Shown here in pieces: positions 38,246-63,298 of a DNA stretch of 64,000 nt (position 1 is its first letter; every line of letters begins with the position of its first letter). The DNA comes from Afipia sp. GAS231. GTDB lineage: Bacteria > Pseudomonadota > Alphaproteobacteria > Rhizobiales > Xanthobacteraceae. Below the pieces are notes generated by a model. That model made no database searches. It was not told the origin of the DNA and saw only the letters and a program-made list of their open reading frames with translations. The stretch is taken from NCBI RefSeq assembly GCF_900103365.1, contig NZ_LT629703.1, positions 1,984,001-2,048,000 of the forward strand. The letters run 5' to 3'. The translations under genes were made by a program, and so were the position numbers.

Positions 38246-38249
38246 GCCA

Positions 38250-38355
38250 CTGTCGTCCCCCGCGAAGGCGGGGGACCCAGTACGCCGCGGCTTATCGATT
38301 TTAATCACTGCCGCCTCTGGGATACTGGATCATCCGCCTTCGCGGATGATGACAG
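38250..38355. repeat. CTGTC(G/A)TC...palindromic element
   Basis: Left arm 38250 onward (CTGTCGTCCCCCGCGAAGGCGG) and right arm ending at 38355 (reverse complement CTGTCATCATCCGCGAAGGCGG) are imperfect inverted repeats of about 37 bases around a short spacer. No ORF within. The layout is like a small non-autonomous element. Confidence 0.75.
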
Positions 38356-39768: not shown

Positions 39769-40100
39769 GGGCATCGTCATTGCGAGTCTTCGTAGGGTGG
39801 GTTAGCGAAGCGTAACCCACCAACTTTTTTCGCGGACACTCGGTGGGTTACGGCTTCGCCTAACCCACCCTACAAACGCACCTTCGCCTTCTCGCGACAT
39901 GATTTGCCCGAGCTATGCAATCAGCCTTGCCCTCAAAATCAGAGCAACTGTGCTGGTAGACCGGCGATCGGCCGGGGCTCAAGACTGGCGCTGCCGCGCC
40001 CCCGCCTTCGGCGGCTGACGGCCTTGACCCCGTCCGCTCACCGGTCTTTGAGGTCGACCATGCGCTCGGTCGCAGACCGAGCGCGAGAGGATGCACTCGC
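39769..40100. other. intergenic region: hairpin repeat and IS end
   Basis: 332 bases without a gene. It contains the GTAGGGTGGGTTA inverted repeat (39792-39873) and, from about 39935, the non-coding right end of the left IS110-family element, including an RNA-like hairpin GCGCTCGGTC/GACCGAGCGC at about 40062-40084. Confidence 0.7.
39792..39873. repeat. GTAGGGTGGGTTA inverted repeat
   Basis: The arms GTAGGGTGGGTTAGCGAAGCGTAACCCACC and its near reverse complement flank an AT-rich centre. Within each arm GGTGGGTTA and TAACCCACC also pair. This is a dispersed-repeat type common in rhizobial genomes. Confidence 0.75.
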
Positions 40101-41063
40101 TCAACTCAGCGCGTAACGGCTGGGGTCCCATTTCTGCCGTCGCGCGATCAGCGTGTTGCAGATGACGATCAGCTTGCGCATGCAGGCAATGAGCGCGACT
40201 TTCGGCTTCTTGCCCTTGGCGATCAGGCGTCGATAGAAGGCCTTGAGCGCCGGGTTGTTCTGCGTGACGGCCCCGAGACAGGGCATGTAGATCGCAGTGC
40301 GAATCCAGCGGCGGCCACCCTTGATATGACGCTCGCCGCGCCGTTGGCCACTATCGTCATCGTAAGGAGCCGCACCCAATAATGCGGCGGCGACCTCGTT
40401 GCTAACCTGCCCAAGCTCCGGCATGCCCGCGACGAGGTTCGCGGCGCTCGTCGCGGCGAAGCCAGGCACGCTCGCGATGATCTCGGCACGCTCGGCAAGG
40501 TGTGGCGTGGCCTTGATCTTGGCCGCAATGGCAGCCTCTAGCCCAGCAATTTCGCGGGCCAGGTCCTTCAAGATGCGGGCATGGGCTTTCTGAACCAATC
40601 CTGGTGCAGCATGCTCATTCTGGCTCTGCAAGCGGGTCTTCAACTCAACCAGTGCGATACGCGCCTTCACCAGCGCCAGCATCTCCTCATGCGCGGCATC
40701 GTAGCTCTGCTCCGGTGCCTCGTTGAATGTCTCGGCGAACCAAGCGATCATCTCCGCGTCGATCGCATCGTTCTTGGCCAGGCGTCCGGCCGATCGGGCG
40801 AAGCTGCGCACCCGCTTGGGGTCGACAATCCGCACCGCGATGCCGGCCTGACGCAGTACCTTGGCCCAGTCCCGCTCATAGCCGCCACTGGCCTCCATGA
40901 CGGCCTTGTTCACCTTGTGCTTGCGCAGCCAGGCAACCAACCGGCGATGCCCCTGCGCGCTGCTCGGGTACGGTTGCCGCAGTGCCAGCACGCGAATGCA
41001 TGCATCAATCTTGTCCTTGGCGACATCGATGCCCACGACGATGAGACCGTTTTGTGCCATCAT
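40101..41063 (-). CDS. IS110-family transposase (DEDD recombinase)
   Basis: A 320-residue IS110-type recombinase. The N-terminal RuvC-like DEDD domain begins IVVGIDVAKDKIDACI (first Asp), with EASGGYERDW (Glu) and AKNDAIDAEMIAWFA (Asp pair). The C-terminal transposase_20 domain has SVPGFAATSAANLVAGMPELG and the catalytic-Ser region LLGAAPYDDDSGQRRGERHIKGGR. Intact, no frameshift. The ATG is doubled (41063 and 41060), preceded by GGAAGGGAGTGG. It shares most of its sequence with the right copy at 41759. Confidence 0.93.
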   Translation of the reverse strand: MMAQNGLIVVGIDVAKDKIDACIRVLALRQPYPSSAQGHRRLVAWLRKHKVNKAVMEASGGYERDWAKVLRQAGIAVRIVDPKRVRSFARSAGRLAKNDAIDAEMIAWFAETFNEAPEQSYDAAHEEMLALVKARIALVELKTRLQSQNEHAAPGLVQKAHARILKDLAREIAGLEAAIAAKIKATPHLAERAEIIASVPGFAATSAANLVAGMPELGQVSNEVAAALLGAAPYDDDSGQRRGERHIKGGRRWIRTAIYMPCLGAVTQNNPALKAFYRRLIAKGKKPKVALIACMRKLIVICNTLIARRQKWDPSRYALS

Positions 41064-41245
41064 CCACTCCCTTCCTTGCTCGTGCGGGCTCGAAGCCCAT
41101 GCAACTGTTCGGGTTGAGGAAGACACCGGAGCTGTCCCTCGCTCTGATACAGGCTCTGTCGCCTTAGGGCGTTGCGGGCTCAGTTCCAGCGAACGGGCGG
41201 TTGGTAGGCAACCGCCCGTTCGCACATTCTGGCAGATCTCGCGGA
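41064..41245 (-). ncRNA. candidate bridge RNA region of left IS110 copy
   Basis: Upstream non-coding DNA conserved with the right copy. It contains a 12-bp stem AACGGGCGGTTG/CAACCGCCCGTT (41192-41220) with the loop CCTAC in transposase orientation. IS110 recombinases of the IS110 group are known to use a structured bridge RNA encoded upstream. Exact ends cannot be set by eye. Confidence 0.5.
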
Positions 41246-41574
41246 CACAAGGGCGCAGGGAAGACCGGATGCGCGCTGCACCCGCGGTCTCATGTGCGAT
41301 GTTGCACAAGAATATGCTGCACATGAGCATACAGGTTCAGCGGAGAGCCTCCGGCCTTCCCTGCGCAATGGCTTTACGGCTTATACGTAATCGTCCTGGT
41401 GACCGGCTTTCTTGCCACCATCGTCGGCATCGGCTTTCGCTTCCGCCAACTTGACGCCAGCACCGGGGCGTCGGACCCAAACGATTTCGCCGTACGCTGC
41501 AGCCCGTTCGTCTCGCGTGCTGCCGCGTCCACCGCTCCCTGCCCCTCGTTTGCGACGATGGCCAACGCCCCTTG

Positions 41575-41758
41575 TGTCCAAAAAATTTGGCAGAATGAGC
41601 GAACGGGCGGTTGCGGACCAACCGCCCGTTGCTGGAACTGAGCCCGTACGCCCCAAAGGCGACAGAGCCTGTACCAGAGCGAGGGACAGCTCCGGCGTCT
41701 TCCTCAACCCGAACAGTTGCAAGGGCTTCGAGCCCGTACCGAGCAAGGAAGGGAGTGG
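41575..41758 (+). ncRNA. candidate bridge RNA region of right IS110 copy
   Basis: Counterpart of 41064-41245. The same 12-bp stem lies at 41602-41630 but the five-base loop is CGGAC instead of CCTAC. Downstream sequence up to the ATG is largely conserved. Conservation outside coding DNA supports a structured RNA; the role is from family knowledge. Confidence 0.5.
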
Positions 41759-42721
41759 ATGATGGCACAAGATGATCGCATTGTCGTGGGCATCGATGTG
41801 GCAAAGGACAAGGTGGATGCGTGCATTCGCTCGCTGTCATTGCGTCAGGTCTGTCCGAACACGGGACAAGGCCACCGCAAGCTGGTGGCCTGGCTTCGCA
41901 AGTACAAGGCAACCAGGGCTGTGATGGAGGCGAGCGGCGGTTACGAGCGTGACTGGGCCAAGCTACTGCGCCAGGCCGGTGTCGAGGTGCGGATCGTCGA
42001 CCCCAAACGCGTCCGCAGCTTCGCGCTATCGGCCGGCCGGCTGGCAAAGAACGATGTGATCGACGCGGAGATGATCGCCTGGTTCGCCGAGATATTTACC
42101 GAGGCGCCGAGCCAGACCCACGATGCCGCACGCGAGGAGTTGCTGGCGCTGGTGAAAGCGCGCATCGGTCTGGGTGATCTCAAGACGCGCTTGCAAAGCC
42201 AAAACGAGCATGCTGCACCAGGACTGGTTCAGAAAACGCATGCCCGCGTCTTGAAGAATCTGGTCAGTGAAATTGCCAAGCTCGAGGCGGCAATTGCGGC
42301 CAAGATCAAGGCCTCGCCACACCTTGCCGAGCGTGCCGAGATCATCGAGAGCGTGCCGGGCCTCGCCGAAACGACCTCCGCCAACCTCATTGCGGGGATG
42401 CCGGAGCTTGGGCAGGTGAGCAACAAGATCGCCGGTGCGTTATTAGGCGCCGCCCCGTACGACGACGATAGCGGCCATCGGCGCGGTGAGCGTCATATCA
42501 AGGGTGGCCGCCGCTGGGTCCGCAACGCCATCTACATGCCCTGCCTCGGCGCAGCCACGCAGAACAACCCGGTGCTCAAGGCCTTCTACGACCGCCTGAT
42601 TGCCAAGGGAAAGAAGCCGAAAGTGGTGCTTGTCGCCTGCATGCGCAAGCTCATCGTCATCCTCAACATCATGATCGCACGACGGCAGAAATGGGATCCC
42701 AGCCGTTACGCACTGAACTGA
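41759..42721 (+). CDS. IS110-family transposase (DEDD recombinase)
   Basis: A 320-residue recombinase of the same length as the left-copy product and clearly paralogous (IVVGIDVAKDKVDACIRSLSLRQ, EASGGYERDWAKLLRQAG, AKNDVIDAEMIAWFAE, LLGAAPYDDDSGHRRGERHIKGGRRW). DEDD residues and the C-terminal Ser region are intact. The two proteins differ at scattered positions, so this is not a very recent duplication. The preceding GGAAGGGAGTGG serves as ribosome site. Both copies may be active. Confidence 0.93.
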   Translation: MMAQDDRIVVGIDVAKDKVDACIRSLSLRQVCPNTGQGHRKLVAWLRKYKATRAVMEASGGYERDWAKLLRQAGVEVRIVDPKRVRSFALSAGRLAKNDVIDAEMIAWFAEIFTEAPSQTHDAAREELLALVKARIGLGDLKTRLQSQNEHAAPGLVQKTHARVLKNLVSEIAKLEAAIAAKIKASPHLAERAEIIESVPGLAETTSANLIAGMPELGQVSNKIAGALLGAAPYDDDSGHRRGERHIKGGRRWVRNAIYMPCLGAATQNNPVLKAFYDRLIAKGKKPKVVLVACMRKLIVILNIMIARRQKWDPSRYALN

Positions 42722-43110
42722 GCGAGCGCACCTCACCGCGCTCGGTCATCGACCGAGCGCATGCCAAGCCAACAGACCGGAGAGCGGACGGGGTCAAGGC
42801 CGTAAGCCGCCGAAGGCGGGGCGCGCCCCGCGCCAGCCTTGAGGCCCGGCCGATCGCCGGTTTACTTCAGCACAGTTGCTCTGGTGGGACAGGATGGCGG
42901 GAGTTAAACGTCTGATTTGCCCGACGGCGCCAGCGAAATATTTTTGCAGCCTTGGATTGACCCATATCTTGGGGTGATTTGCCCGTCGGGCAATCATCTG
43001 GCGGTAGTCCACAATATCCGCCGGGTTTGCCGCGCCACATGACGGCCCACCCATTTCCCGTTGCCGGCTTGTCCGCTACGATACCCGACCCTGAGGGCTC
43101 GGGAGAGGCA
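42722..43110. other. IS right end and histidine kinase upstream region
   Basis: 389 bases. The first about 165 are the non-coding right end of the IS110 copy. From about 42905 there is a pair of GATTTGCCCG / CGGGCAATC segments (42916-42925 and 42985-42994) flanking AT-richer DNA, then GC-rich sequence up to the kinase ribosome site GGGAGAGG. No gene is supported; an upstream in-frame extension of the kinase (from 42979) is possible but lacks a ribosome site. Confidence 0.55.
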
Positions 43111-44661
43111 ATGAAGGCAGGCGGCGAACCCGACAAATTGCGAAGCCGCAAGGCGGCGGCGCGAAAGCCTGCGCCCAAAGCCACGCGCGCGTCCAAGACT
43201 GCTCGCGTGCCCAAGACGGCTCGCGCGCCCAAGGCTGCGCGCACCGTCAAGCCTGCGCGCGCGCTCCGGCCTGCCAAAACCAAAAGCCCTGCAAAGGCCG
43301 AGGCCGAACGGCTTGCTCGCGAGCTCGGGGACGCCAGGGAGCGTCATGCCGCCACGGCCGAGGTGCTGAGCCTGATCGCGGACGCGCCGACCGACCTGCA
43401 GCCGGTGTTCGACCGGATCGTCAAGAACGCGGCACGGCTGTGCCAGAGCGTGCTGAGCGCCGTCTACCGGCGCGACGGCGATCAGGTCCACCTGGTCGCG
43501 CATGACAAGTTCTCGGCCGAATCGATCGCGGCGGTGCAGAAGGCCTACCCTGCCCCGCTCGCCAGCAAAAACCTGATCTCGGTCGCCATCCGCGAGGGGC
43601 GCGTCGTCCATGAGCCGGATGTGCTGATCTCGGGCGGCTACAGCGACCTGCAGCGAACTTCGGGTTATCGCAGCATCCTCGTGGTGCCGATGCTGCGCGA
43701 CGATGTCGCGATCGGCGCCATCGCGGTGATGCGGCTCGAGCCGCTACTGTTTCCGAAGACGCAGGTCGAACTGCTCAGAACCTTTGCCGGTCAGGCGGTG
43801 ATCGCGATTGAGAATACGCGGCTGTTCGCCGAGGTGCAGGAACGCACCCAGCAACTGACGCAATCGCTCGACGACCTCAGAGCCGCGCAGGACAGCCTGG
43901 TGCAGACCGAAAAGCTCGCCGCGCTGGGGCGGCTGGTCGCGGGCGTCGCCCACGAGATCAACACCCCGATCGGCACCAGCCTGACGGTGGCCTCGACCAT
44001 GATCGAAAAGACCGACCGGTTTGAGGCCGTGGTCGCCTCGGGCGACGTGCGACGGTCGAACCTGACCGAATTCGTCGCCGCGAGCCGCGAGGCGGCATCG
44101 CAGATCATGATCAACCTCAACCATGCGATCGACCTGATCCAGTCGTTCAAGCAGGTCGCCGCCGACCGCAACATTTCGGACCGCAGAAGCTTCGATCTCA
44201 GCGAGGTCACCGAACAGGTGATCAAGGGACTGCGGTTCAGCCTGCGCAGAAATTTGACGGTCGACGTCGAATGCGAATCCGGCCTCGCGATGACCAGCTA
44301 TCCCGGGCCTTACGGCCAGGTACTCACCAACCTGGTGCTCAATTCCGCAGTGCATGCCTTTCCGGACGGCGAAGGCGGCTCCGTGCATATCGCGGCGCAG
44401 GCCTCGGGCAAGAACAATGTCGAGGTGCTGTTTTCGGACGACGGCTGCGGCATGAGCCCGGAGGTCCGGCGCCACGTGTTCGATCCGTTCTTCACGACCC
44501 GGCGCGACCAGGGCAGCACCGGGCTCGGACTGCACATCGTCCACAACATCGTCACCAACCGCCTCGGCGGCCGGATCCAACTGGAGACCAGGCCCGGCGC
44601 CGGCACGAAAATCCGCATCGTCGTGCCGCGCGAGGCGCCGCTGGAGCTTGCCGAAAACTAA
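43111..44661 (+). CDS. GAF-domain sensor histidine kinase with Lys/Ala-rich N-terminus
   Basis: A 516-residue soluble histidine kinase. Residues about 12-62 are a basic repeat built on K(T/A)AR(V/A)PK units resembling histone-H1-type tails. A short coiled coil follows, then a GAF domain (about 85-235). Dimerisation/phosphoacceptor: LAALGRLVAGVAHEINTPIG, His near 282. ATPase motifs: N-box NLVLNSAVHAF (about 410), G1 SDDGCGMS, G2 GSTGLGLHIVHNIV. No transmembrane segment, so it senses an internal signal. ATG 43111 has GAGAGG. No response regulator is adjacent. Its stop overlaps the convergent radical-SAM stop by four bases. Confidence 0.9.
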   Translation: MKAGGEPDKLRSRKAAARKPAPKATRASKTARVPKTARAPKAARTVKPARALRPAKTKSPAKAEAERLARELGDARERHAATAEVLSLIADAPTDLQPVFDRIVKNAARLCQSVLSAVYRRDGDQVHLVAHDKFSAESIAAVQKAYPAPLASKNLISVAIREGRVVHEPDVLISGGYSDLQRTSGYRSILVVPMLRDDVAIGAIAVMRLEPLLFPKTQVELLRTFAGQAVIAIENTRLFAEVQERTQQLTQSLDDLRAAQDSLVQTEKLAALGRLVAGVAHEINTPIGTSLTVASTMIEKTDRFEAVVASGDVRRSNLTEFVAASREAASQIMINLNHAIDLIQSFKQVAADRNISDRRSFDLSEVTEQVIKGLRFSLRRNLTVDVECESGLAMTSYPGPYGQVLTNLVLNSAVHAFPDGEGGSVHIAAQASGKNNVEVLFSDDGCGMSPEVRRHVFDPFFTTRRDQGSTGLGLHIVHNIVTNRLGGRIQLETRPGAGTKIRIVVPREAPLELAEN

Positions 44662-45860
44662 CCAGCGACGCTCCCCGCCAGCGCGTCGCGCACGCCGAGA
44701 CGTTCCCCGTCCGGCTTGCTGACGTAAAGGTGGCTTTCAAGCACGGATTGCATGTTCTCAAACATTGCATAGAGGTCGTCGCAATAAACCGACGGATTGT
44801 CATAACCGTTCTTCTTCGAGAAACGATGCGGAAGATAGCCGCCGCCGCAGGCGTTCATAAATTTGCACTGCTGGCATTTCGCGGAAAGCTTGATGGAAGC
44901 ATCACGCGCGGCTTTCCAGCGGGGCTCGTTCCTGACCTCGTCGATCGTGTGCTCGAAAATGTTGAACTTCGTGTTCGTGAATCCGTCGCCGGCAATCCGC
45001 AGCACATCATGTGCCTCGACCGAACCGTCGGTCATGACCGTGCAGAGTTCGATAGGTTTGTAGCCGACGCCCTCGGTCGGTGAATTGTTGCCGAGCATGG
45101 CGGTGATCATATCGGTAATGATCCGGATATTCGCTGTGGGCTTGCTGCGGTTGGCCTCCAGCCACAGGTCGAACAGCCCCTTGTAGAACGAACCAACGGA
45201 TGCGGGGGTCTCATCCACCGTCGCATCCGGGATCATGATATCGTAGTTGGCAATTCCGCACTTCGCGAAAAATTCGACGTAGTCTTTTGGCGGATAAGCG
45301 GGATTGCAGACGGCCAGCGCGCTCATGCCGATGTCGCGTGACGCCAGCATCCGCGCGGCCCGTTCTGCCGCGGCGTGGGTGCCTGTGCCTTGAAACGTTT
45401 TCCGGTGAAGGTCGTGAATATGTGCCGGCCCGTCCAGGCTGATCGCGACCGAAATGTTGCGAGCCTCGAAACAGTTCAGCCACTCATCATCGATCAACAC
45501 GCCATTGGTGGTCACCGCGATGGGTATGTCGCATCTCGTTCGTGACGATATGCCTTCGCAGGCCTCCGCAATGCGGTGAAAATTATCGACTCCCCACAGC
45601 AAGGGTTCGCCGCCGTGCAGAATGATGGGAAAATCGATCAGGGAATGCCTGGCGACGTGCTCTTCGATGCGCTGCAACAACTGAAGCAGCACTTCCGAGC
45701 TCATTAGCTTCGGCTTGTCATAAACCGACGCGTCGCGGAACCAGTAGCAATAGGAGCAGTCGATGTTGCATCTCGAAGCAACCTTGACAAGCAGCTGCGA
45801 GATCGGCTGCTCCTGGAAGCCCAAAGCATCTGGCAAAGCATCTTGAGCGTCAGCCGACAT
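44658..45860 (-). CDS. radical SAM/SPASM peptide maturase (GrrM/OscB-like)
   Basis: A 400-residue radical SAM enzyme. The [4Fe-4S] motif CNIDCSYC (CxxxCxxC) is at about 31-38, followed by LHGGEPLLW and AISLDGPAHIHDLHR. The C-terminal SPASM region has CQQCKFMNACGGGYLPHR and a later YC, the auxiliary-cluster Cys set. The protein resembles cyclophane-forming maturases of the GrrM/OscB/FxsB group, which join an aromatic ring to a residue two positions on. The gene follows its probable precursor by 40 bases. ATG 45860 lacks a ribosome site; a GTG at 45881 would also fit, and coupling to the precursor is possible. No transporter or protease lies beside it. Confidence 0.88.
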   Translation of the reverse strand: MSADAQDALPDALGFQEQPISQLLVKVASRCNIDCSYCYWFRDASVYDKPKLMSSEVLLQLLQRIEEHVARHSLIDFPIILHGGEPLLWGVDNFHRIAEACEGISSRTRCDIPIAVTTNGVLIDDEWLNCFEARNISVAISLDGPAHIHDLHRKTFQGTGTHAAAERAARMLASRDIGMSALAVCNPAYPPKDYVEFFAKCGIANYDIMIPDATVDETPASVGSFYKGLFDLWLEANRSKPTANIRIITDMITAMLGNNSPTEGVGYKPIELCTVMTDGSVEAHDVLRIAGDGFTNTKFNIFEHTIDEVRNEPRWKAARDASIKLSAKCQQCKFMNACGGGYLPHRFSKKNGYDNPSVYCDDLYAMFENMQSVLESHLYVSKPDGERLGVRDALAGSVAG

Positions 45861-45900
45861 GCCGCTACCGGGTGGGGACACGAGAAACTACGAAGCAGGC

Positions 45901-46152
45901 CTAGTATCGGATAAAGCCACCCCTGCGGAACCCGCCGCCACCGCCGTAATATCCCCCTCTGCGAAAGCCGCCGTACCCGCCGCCCCGAAGGAAACCGCCG
46001 CGCCTGAAATAGACCTGGGTCGGCTCGGTAGCATTTTGCCCGCGCAGATCGCTCAGCAATGCGTCGATGCCCTGGTGATCGCTCTGGATTGTTGCGCCCG
46101 GTCCATGCAATTGCAGGATAGTCGATAGAACCTTCAGCGTCGTAATCGGCAT
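45901..46152 (-). CDS. RiPP precursor with five Phe-x-Arg motifs (GrrA/OscA-like)
   Basis: An 83-residue peptide. The N-terminal about 45 residues form a charged leader without signal peptide (MPITTLKVLSTILQLHGPG...). The C-terminal 37 residues contain only Phe, Tyr, Arg, Gly, Leu and Ile, with Phe-x-Arg at 49-51, 54-56, 63-65, 75-77 and 80-82 separated by Gly runs. Such aromatic-x-Arg triplets fit three-residue cyclophane (triceptide) substrates of radical SAM/SPASM maturases, and a maturase is encoded immediately downstream. AAAGGA is eight bases before the ATG. The similarity to GrrA/OscA precursors is from memory; product and activity are unknown. Confidence 0.8.
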   Translation of the reverse strand: MPITTLKVLSTILQLHGPGATIQSDHQGIDALLSDLRGQNATEPTQVYFRRGGFLRGGGYGGFRRGGYYGGGGGFRRGGFIRY

Positions 46153-46433
46153 GTTTTGGTCCTTTTTGCGTTGCAACCAAGGAGCGAACGAAAGGCCGGT
46201 ATCCGAAAGAGCCGAGTGAGCGAGACCTTATACCCTTTTTATTGTAGCGACAATGTGTCGATCGCAAACCTCGGAGCTGTGATGGGATCACGCCCCGGGA
46301 CGTTCTGCGCACTACAGGAAGCGCGAATGCCACTAAATCATTTGCAAAATCATTTGCTGGCAGGACACTATCGTCAGCGAAGCCCCGTTCGAGCTTGCCG
46401 CGGAATGACGTGTGATGGGGCTCAATCCTGGAC
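46153..46433. other. upstream region of the RiPP locus
   Basis: 281 bases between the RiPP precursor (minus) and a membrane protein gene (plus). Lower GC than surroundings, with an AT-rich stretch near 46230-46250 (TTATACCCTTTTTATTGTAGC) that could carry the precursor promoter, and a GATCACGCCCCGGGACG palindromic patch. No gene supported. Confidence 0.45.
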
Positions 46434-46787
46434 ATGATGGCCGAAGAAGACGACCCGACCGACGAGATTTCACAGATCGAGGCGCGGCTGGAGCGGCTCG
46501 CCGAGCGCGCCGAACAGTGCCGGAAGATCATCATGTTCTCGAAGGCAGCGATCGCCGCCGGCGCGCTGTTGCTGCTGGTGATGATGCTCGGCCTGTTCGG
46601 GTCCGGCGCGACGCTTGCGCTGGGATCGATCGCCGCCGTGCTGGGCGGCATCGTGTCGCTGGGATCGAACACCAGCACGCTGCAGCAGACAACGGCCGCC
46701 ATCGCCGCGGCCGAAGCACATCGTTCGGAGCTGATCGGGCGGATTGATTTGCGGGTGGTGGGTGATGGTTTGAGGAAGTTGCACTGA
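46434..46787 (+). CDS. small two-helix membrane protein, unknown function
   Basis: A 117-residue protein. Residues 1-33 are an acidic, coiled-coil-like segment (DEISQIEARLERLAERAEQCRK), then two membrane helices (about 37-58 and 62-80, GALLLLVMMLGLFGSGATLALGSIAAVLGGIVSLG) and a polar C-terminal helix. No family recognised with certainty. The ATG is doubled (46434 and 46437), without a good ribosome site. The coding pattern and helix layout make it likely real. It is divergent from the RiPP precursor. Confidence 0.65.
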   Translation: MMAEEDDPTDEISQIEARLERLAERAEQCRKIIMFSKAAIAAGALLLLVMMLGLFGSGATLALGSIAAVLGGIVSLGSNTSTLQQTTAAIAAAEAHRSELIGRIDLRVVGDGLRKLH

Positions 46788-46797
46788 CGCCTTTACC

Positions 46798-46881
46798 GTC
46801 ATTGCGAGCGCAGCGAAGCAATCCATCTTGCCGCAGAAAAGAAAGACTGGATTGCTTCGTCGCTGCGCTCCTCGCAATGAC
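46798..46881. repeat. GTCATTGCGAGCG palindromic repeat
   Basis: 84 bases, starting GTCATTGCGAGCGCAGCGAAGCAATCC and ending GGATTGCTTCGTCGC...CTCGCAATGAC. The two arms are inverted copies. The same element occurs at 63206-63286. It lies between the membrane protein and ligA stop codons. Confidence 0.88.
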
Positions 46882-46893
46882 GGGGCTGGGGCC

Positions 46894-50731
<3,838 letters not shown>

Positions 50732-63205: not shown

Positions 63206-63286
63206 GTCATTGCGAGCGAAGCGAAGCAATCCATCTTAGCAGCAAGAAAGCTGGATTGCTTCGTCGCTATCGCTCCTCGCAATGAC
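63206..63286. repeat. GTCATTGCGAGCG palindromic repeat
   Basis: 81 bases, the second copy of the 46798-46881 element, with inverted arms around TTAGCAGCAAGAAAG. It lies in the murG-ftsW gap. Confidence 0.88.
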
Positions 63287-63298
63287 GGAGGATCCGGG

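Follow-up and report, generated by a model that had tools for sequence, protein, structure and literature searches.

A two-gene module of Afipia sp. GAS231 that probably makes a multi-cyclophane triceptide with Phe-to-Arg/Lys links

The genome of Afipia sp. GAS231 carries, within the 64,000-nucleotide stretch analysed here (NCBI RefSeq assembly GCF_900103365.1, contig NZ_LT629703.1, positions 1,984,001 to 2,048,000; hereafter the window, in whose own coordinates positions are given), two adjacent minus-strand genes, one for a small glycine-rich peptide and one for a radical S-adenosylmethionine (SAM) enzyme. The first gene (45901-46152, starting with ATG) encodes a precursor of 83 amino acids with a leader (approximately residues 1-47; 46012-46152) and a Gly-rich core (residues 48-83, YFRRGGFLRGGGYGGFRRGGYYGGGGGFRRGGFIRY; 45904-46011), these C-terminal 36 residues being rich in Gly, Arg and Phe. 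All five core Phe stand in F-x-R triplets, exactly where the first-pass annotation of this DNA had placed them (49-51, 54-56, 63-65, 75-77 and 80-82), and five such triplets were reached in 21 of 200000 shuffles of the 36 core residues. The second gene (44658-45860) encodes the maturase (400 amino acids), which matches Radical_SAM (PF04055) in a Pfam search and possesses a CX3CX2C motif and four further conserved Cys near its C-terminus, without a fused HExxH part. It starts with an ATG at 45860, separated from the precursor stop by 40 bases, as previously noted; a GTG at 45881 opens the longest frame. The precursor matches no NCBIfam model up to an E value of 1, and the genome contains a single full copy of it (second match, E 0.37).

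The window's genome, a single contig of 7.58 Mb, is Bradyrhizobium-like. Of 265 genomes searched within the genus, 44 carry the maturase (E up to 1e-120), each in one copy and with the own genome counted. At the order level, ten of 397 genomes matched at E up to 1e-50; five belong to the genus, and the five others show 34-41% identity. At the class level (385 genomes), G964 was the sole further genome to match, with two hits at 33-36%. In the protein database, 1017 maturase homologues were found at E up to 1e-60 among 7996 candidates scored; of these the best 120 were listed, and among the listed matches the relatives with names belong to Bradyrhizobium. The search for the precursor family in related genomes, proposed in the first-pass annotation, returned 734 homologues at E up to 1e-3 (again the best 120 were listed), and the core that had been called unusual is not so within its own family. 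In all 24 named loci (all Bradyrhizobium), an open reading frame (ORF) for an F-x-(R/K) precursor ends 26-153 bases upstream of the point at which the maturase match begins. The predicted pairing of a radical SAM enzyme with an F-x-R peptide is thus borne out, and repeated aromatic-x-acceptor motifs in a precursor beside its maturase are a mark of triceptide systems.

No third gene is widely shared by these loci. When the ORFs of 24 rows were clustered (the window and 23 of the 24 named loci, some of which end early at contig ends), those of at least 90 amino acids occurring in more than six rows were the two genes and ORFs overlapping them, and among ORFs of at least 30 amino acids within 1.5 kb of the pair the widest set, a short antisense frame upstream, was found in 7 of 24 rows and the next in 4. 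Nucleotide homology to window positions 43001-48000 begins at 44665-44686 in all of the 24 loci but L053, which a contig end truncates, and ends at 46141-46261 in all but L051, where it stops at 45809. Furthermore, the surroundings differ between genomes. In the nearest relatives, G201 and G159, the pair lies at the same site beside ligA, with the kinase and transposase-like ORFs next to it absent in G201 and present in G159. In G012 and G015, only the pair matches window 30001-64000, and in G219 the pair does so together with a few pieces of less than 100 bases. In four of nine ligA loci examined (G031, G004, G042, G005), ligA joins the sequence of window position 39770 within about 160 bases, so the stretch from 39.8 to 46.8 kb is absent there; no such junction was seen in the other five, several being cut by contig ends. 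G031 carries the pair elsewhere in its genome. Since homology stops near the edges of the pair and its sites differ between genomes, it behaves as a transplantable unit, and on this comparative evidence the precursor and the maturase appear to be a discrete, self-contained module.

The strongest case against a chance origin of the F-x-R motifs is, as far as sequences can tell, the conservation of position i+2 across homologues. Among 121 proteins (the window precursor and the 120 listed homologues) with 95 distinct cores, the residue two positions after a core Phe is Arg or Lys in 475 of 478 cases (466 Arg, 9 Lys); two of the three exceptions lie in an N-terminal extension of one protein (P0177) and one in a core that looks frame-shifted (P0148). 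In the 23 distinct cores of the 24 named loci, Arg or Lys occupies this position in 120 of 120 cases (106 Arg, 14 Lys). Arg thus dominates, as first proposed, and the occurrence of Lys extends the motif to F-x-(R/K). Five motifs per core are the rule (91 of 95 listed and 18 of 23 named-locus cores), as the first-pass annotation had it for the window, with six occurring in 2 of 95 (one being P0177 with its extension) and 5 of 23, and four in two listed cores (P0148 and P0231), both frame-shifted in look. Spacers, repeat number and the middle residue (Arg, Ile, Val, Leu, Ala or Gly) vary between cores while F-x-(R/K) holds; F-R-R makes up 278 of 478 triplets in the listed homologues and 70 of 120 in the named loci. 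In 24 rows made up of the window and 23 of the 24 named loci, Phe is encoded by TTC 63 times and by TTT 62 times, and all six Arg and both Lys codons are used at i+2. Because the conservation of Arg/Lys comes with mixed synonymous codons, F-x-(R/K) is kept by selection at the protein level.

The suggestion that Tyr residues are additional sites fared less well. There are two to seven Tyr per core, and internal ones are poorly conserved, with Gly or Pro at i+2 in most cases. Y48 stands apart: together with R50 it makes up a Y-F-R triplet, and it is present in 94 of 95 listed cores and in 14 of 23 named-locus cores, being replaced in the other nine. The C-terminal Tyr is found in 94 of 95 and 23 of 23 cores, respectively.

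Among NCBIfam models, the maturase scores best with YhhB (NF041707; 309.4 bits, cut-off 445), followed by FxsB (TIGR04269; 273.2 bits, cut-off 370), so that it qualifies for neither family; the Phe-x-Ser core that goes with FxsB is absent as well, the window core having no Ser. XyeB gives 183.9 bits (cut-off 450). With FxsB, whose characterized member is MscB, the window system has in common the predicted Phe donor, and it differs in the acceptor, which there is Ser. By sequence, the radical SAM domain of ChlB (PDB 9gm3; E 1.4e-55, query residues 20-372) comes closest among solved proteins, with the same seven Cys in the alignment; a cited reference terms ChlB, in its title, a multiple cyclophane synthase. 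The window locus differs in having no HExxH partner; the comparison with ChlB covered the enzyme. These Cys are invariant in 35 of 35 maturase rows: C31, C35 and C38 of the radical SAM motif and C329, C332, C338 and C360 in the C-terminal part, the latter four being the putative auxiliary-cluster Cys of the triceptide class. No protein of the 299 phylum genomes or 14 controls scored above the NF041707 cut-off, so YhhB itself lies outside that sample. A role in defence was considered and rejected: two PADLOC pVip models hit the maturase (38.3 and 25.7 bits), with matches confined to its radical SAM core, and none hit the precursor.

Arg-bearing precursors also accompany the closest other enzymes. 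In the maturase tree, the window family joins L014 and L060 first (support 100/97) and then the YhhB-type rows L015, L061, L062, L064 and L065 (98/90). The system around YhhB resembles the window module in the best-scoring enzyme model, in the precursor gene immediately upstream, in the aromatic-x-Arg core (Y-x-R, H-x-R) and in the acceptor: YhhB is reported to join C3 of Tyr and C2 of His to the β carbon of Arg (PMC11002830, cited here and below, like the other papers, for the part covered). Arg as an acceptor becomes more credible because the best model, YhhB, reportedly makes links to the Arg β carbon. In contrast to the YhhB example, a fused radical SAM-HExxH protein, the window enzyme has no HExxH part, and in contrast to YhhA its precursor has Phe donors, a Gly-rich core with five motifs, a leader not detectably alike and no ending like YDRMHHRHNRS, with which one RefSeq-annotated YhhA ends; the precursors of L061-L064 and L015 end likewise or nearly so. 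The YhhA-like precursor of L066 (1208-1426) has the core FDRTHHRHNR, in which Phe replaces the Tyr of YhhA. Other enzymes of this kind link Trp to Arg or Asn (XncB), Trp to Asn or Asp (OscB), Phe to Asn (XncB or OscB) and Phe to Ser (MscB), and for enzymes other than YhhB, C4 of Phe is described as the donor in links to Asn or Ser (PMC11002830). In darobactin, Lys partners Trp (PMC9055067).

The maturases of L014 (42%) and L060 (41%) adjoin proteins with twin-arginine translocation (Tat)-like leaders and Y-x-R repeats; the precursors found beside these and the YhhB-type maturases carry Arg at i+2. The L060 precursor has 13 homologues with [YF]RR repeats, one of them 98% identical to it. The family (L014 781-1344, plus strand; L060, reverse strand; P0243-P0255) shares with the window precursor dense aromatic-x-Arg repeats, the place upstream of a maturase (L014, L060) and the nearest branch of the tree, and differs in its leader and its mostly Tyr donors; its maturases were seen only in L014 and L060. 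It fits no family of NCBIfam or Pfam. Apparently this is a sister system without a name, which may rely on Tat for export; the assignment follows an SRRxFLDRL pattern recognized by eye and weak matches (TIGR02811, formate_TAT, in 9 of 14 members and TIGR01409 in 2 of 14, with an E limit of 0.1; the scores shown do not reach the cut-off), and no Pfam Tat family matched these members. No clear precursor was found in L070-L072 (L072 has an ORF rich in His, Gly and Ser), and none was seen in L065. On a Rhizobium lusitanum plasmid (L122, 1233-2375), a 380-amino-acid protein with repeated MHDQTHSE units directly precedes radical SAM and HExxH genes and is possibly a large His-rich cyclophane precursor.

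The leader of the window precursor is strongly conserved (QLHGPGATIQSDHQGIDALL); the conserved columns of an alignment of ten precursors (A1) include QLHGPGATIQSDHQGIDALLSDLR, a putative recognition element for the maturase. Compared by hhalign with the Tat-like leaders, it aligned ATIQSDHQGIDALLSDL with VTLKSTNPALDGIVTEG at a probability of 30%, and profile comparison of Tat-like with YhhA leaders gave 12% and 1%. In a comparison of 13-mers, in which the motif was first spotted by eye and the controls are single shuffles, the window and Tat-like leaders scored 19.3 (control 13.3, standard deviation 4.3), the Tat-like and YhhA-type leaders 17.8 (control 11.4) and the window and YhhA-type leaders 13.1 (control 12.5). 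A leader motif common to all groups was therefore dropped, the modest signal being confined to the window and Tat-like leaders. Upstream of the precursor gene, a conserved stretch (46153-46261, minus strand), at or before whose far end the homology to the named loci stops, contains a promoter-like CACATTGTCG(N15)TATA from 105 bases before the ATG. CAC[AG]TTnnCG occurs in 16 of 24 upstream regions; in 15 of these its distance from the ATG is 103-129 bases, and TATA follows. The motif alone occurs nine times in the window on both strands. A promoter shared by these loci is likely on this pattern. The first-pass annotation had remarked on the absence of nearby export or protease genes; in the ORF clustering of 24 rows, no exporter, protease or hydroxylase is common to the loci. 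No signal peptide is evident in the window precursor on inspection by eye, no signal-peptide program having been applied. In having no shared exporter, protease or hydroxylase, the module differs from cluster 41 of Kostenko et al., in which a Tyr-Asn-Arg-x-(His-Asn-Arg)2 peptide is encoded with an oxidase and a peptidase (PMC9062424).

Taken together, the locus is probably a two-gene module for a ribosomally synthesized and post-translationally modified peptide; its maturase, nearest to YhhB, would install five or six Phe-to-Arg/Lys links and so produce a multi-cyclophane triceptide. We infer that this triceptide-type enzyme binds the conserved leader and, with SAM, abstracts a hydrogen from the β carbon of the Arg (or Lys) at i+2, which would then be joined to the ring of the Phe at i. 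Up to five F-x-R sites would be linked here (predicted links F49-R51, F54-R56, F63-R65, F75-R77 and F80-R82), and five or six F-x-R/K sites in intact relatives. Each link would lower the mass by 2.016 Da, and the product would be a strained multi-cyclophane peptide, Gly-rich and cationic. The module presumably works without an exporter or protease of its own; host systems would then process and export the peptide, if at all, or the full-length cross-linked peptide would itself be the product. In the covered parts of six papers (PMC11002830, PMC9062424, PMC12636437, PMC12281569, PMC12186524, PMC10885120), no Phe-to-Arg link is given; the primary triceptide papers are outside this set, and prior listing there is possible. 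Likewise, no Phe-to-Lys three-residue ring is given in the covered parts of the literature searched.

Several observations count against this interpretation. The maturase reaches the curated cut-off of none of the 25 listed NCBIfam models, and its tree has long branches and was midpoint-rooted for drawing only. The match between the window and Tat-like leaders is weak (P 0.0006 and 0.0017, probability 30% and 15%), and profile comparison of the window leader (A1) with YhhA leaders (A2) gave no match. Of 17 plasmid records, five were examined; one is YhhA with Y/H-x-R, and the other four, distant relatives (31.7-34.9%), show no repeated aromatic-x-Arg core in the one ORF read beside each maturase, which holds only single aromatic-x-R/K triplets (F-S-R; H-L-R and Y-D-K; F-P-R; F-A-R). 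Finally, Y48-F49-R50 overlaps the first F-R-R, and a Tyr link there is possible on sequence grounds. In a broader form of this objection, the maturase would modify the peptide at other residues or by other chemistry, be it at Y48, at the i+1 Arg of F-R-R, by a C-N or C-O link or by changing the Arg side chain. The frequency of Arg at i+1 and the near-constant Y48 and C-terminal Tyr of the listed cores fit this. However, Phe at i with Arg or Lys at i+2 is the sole feature common to all motifs, i+1 being otherwise aliphatic or Gly, Y48 is replaced in a good part of the named-locus cores, and the links of YhhB to Arg reportedly run from i to i+2 (PMC11002830). We consider such other chemistry rather unlikely.

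It seems very improbable that the Gly-rich peptide works without modification, perhaps as a cationic protein of the RGG-like type, and that the radical SAM gene is an unrelated neighbour. The core is indeed rich in RGG and YGG and resembles Pfam GRP below the cut-off (15.7 bits, cut-off 30), but precursor and maturase are paired in 24 of 24 loci, homology is confined to the two genes and the upstream stretch, and the pair stays together at different sites. Even less credible is membership in the GrrM/GrrA (OscB/OscA) system, to whose enzyme class the first-pass annotation had assigned the maturase. Both systems have Gly-rich cores and enzymes of the cyclophane-forming radical SAM class, and one homologous precursor (L035) reaches 15.2 bits with the GrrA model TIGR04260 (cut-off 31). 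Yet the window maturase obtains 127 bits with the GrrM/OscB model TIGR04261 (cut-off 310), far less than with YhhB, and is closer to FxsB and, among solved structures, to ChlB; the window precursor has no TIGR04260 match up to E 1, and its core contains no Asn, the reported acceptors of OscB being Asn and Asp (PMC11002830).

With its clear motif, its enzyme branch and its many natural variants, the probable Phe-to-Arg/Lys triceptide module lends itself to studies of donor and acceptor choice by radical SAM cyclophane enzymes, and with two genes it is small enough to be rebuilt in E. coli. It represents a candidate class of multi-ring cationic peptides and raises the question of what role a cross-linked peptide plays without a dedicated exporter or protease. 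A bolder extension, which we offer with considerable doubt, is that this cyclophane branch is specialised for basic acceptors (Arg, Lys) and turns repeat proteins into chains of strained rings; the full-length protein would be the working product, exported by Tat in the Y-x-R groups and kept in the cell (or otherwise released) in Bradyrhizobium, and a cassette of promoter, precursor and enzyme would move between genome sites.

Next to the module, a GAF/histidine-kinase gene (42979-44661, plus strand) is convergent with the maturase gene and overlaps it at the stop codons. A functional link of the two was rejected: among 60 genomes searched, seven others have kinase homologues (77-81%), of which G001, G012, G024 and G031 carry the maturase on another contig or megabases away and G023, G028 and G051 lack it, although G159, with kinase and module together, counts against the rejection. 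Adjoining the kinase gene are two long ORFs (40101-41330, minus strand; 41717-42721, plus strand) that we take from their look to be IS110-type transposases. On the other side, ligA (46894-49047, minus strand) was compared across 60 sampled Bradyrhizobium genomes and shows 62-69% identity to its counterpart in 50 of them and 84-93% in nine (the window's own genome being the sixtieth), a pattern that, from these identities, is a deep split within one genus. Short dispersed repeats at about 46797-46883, where L038 shows an additional match, and at 38249-38355 recur in other Bradyrhizobium loci, and the former also resembles window 63213-63287.

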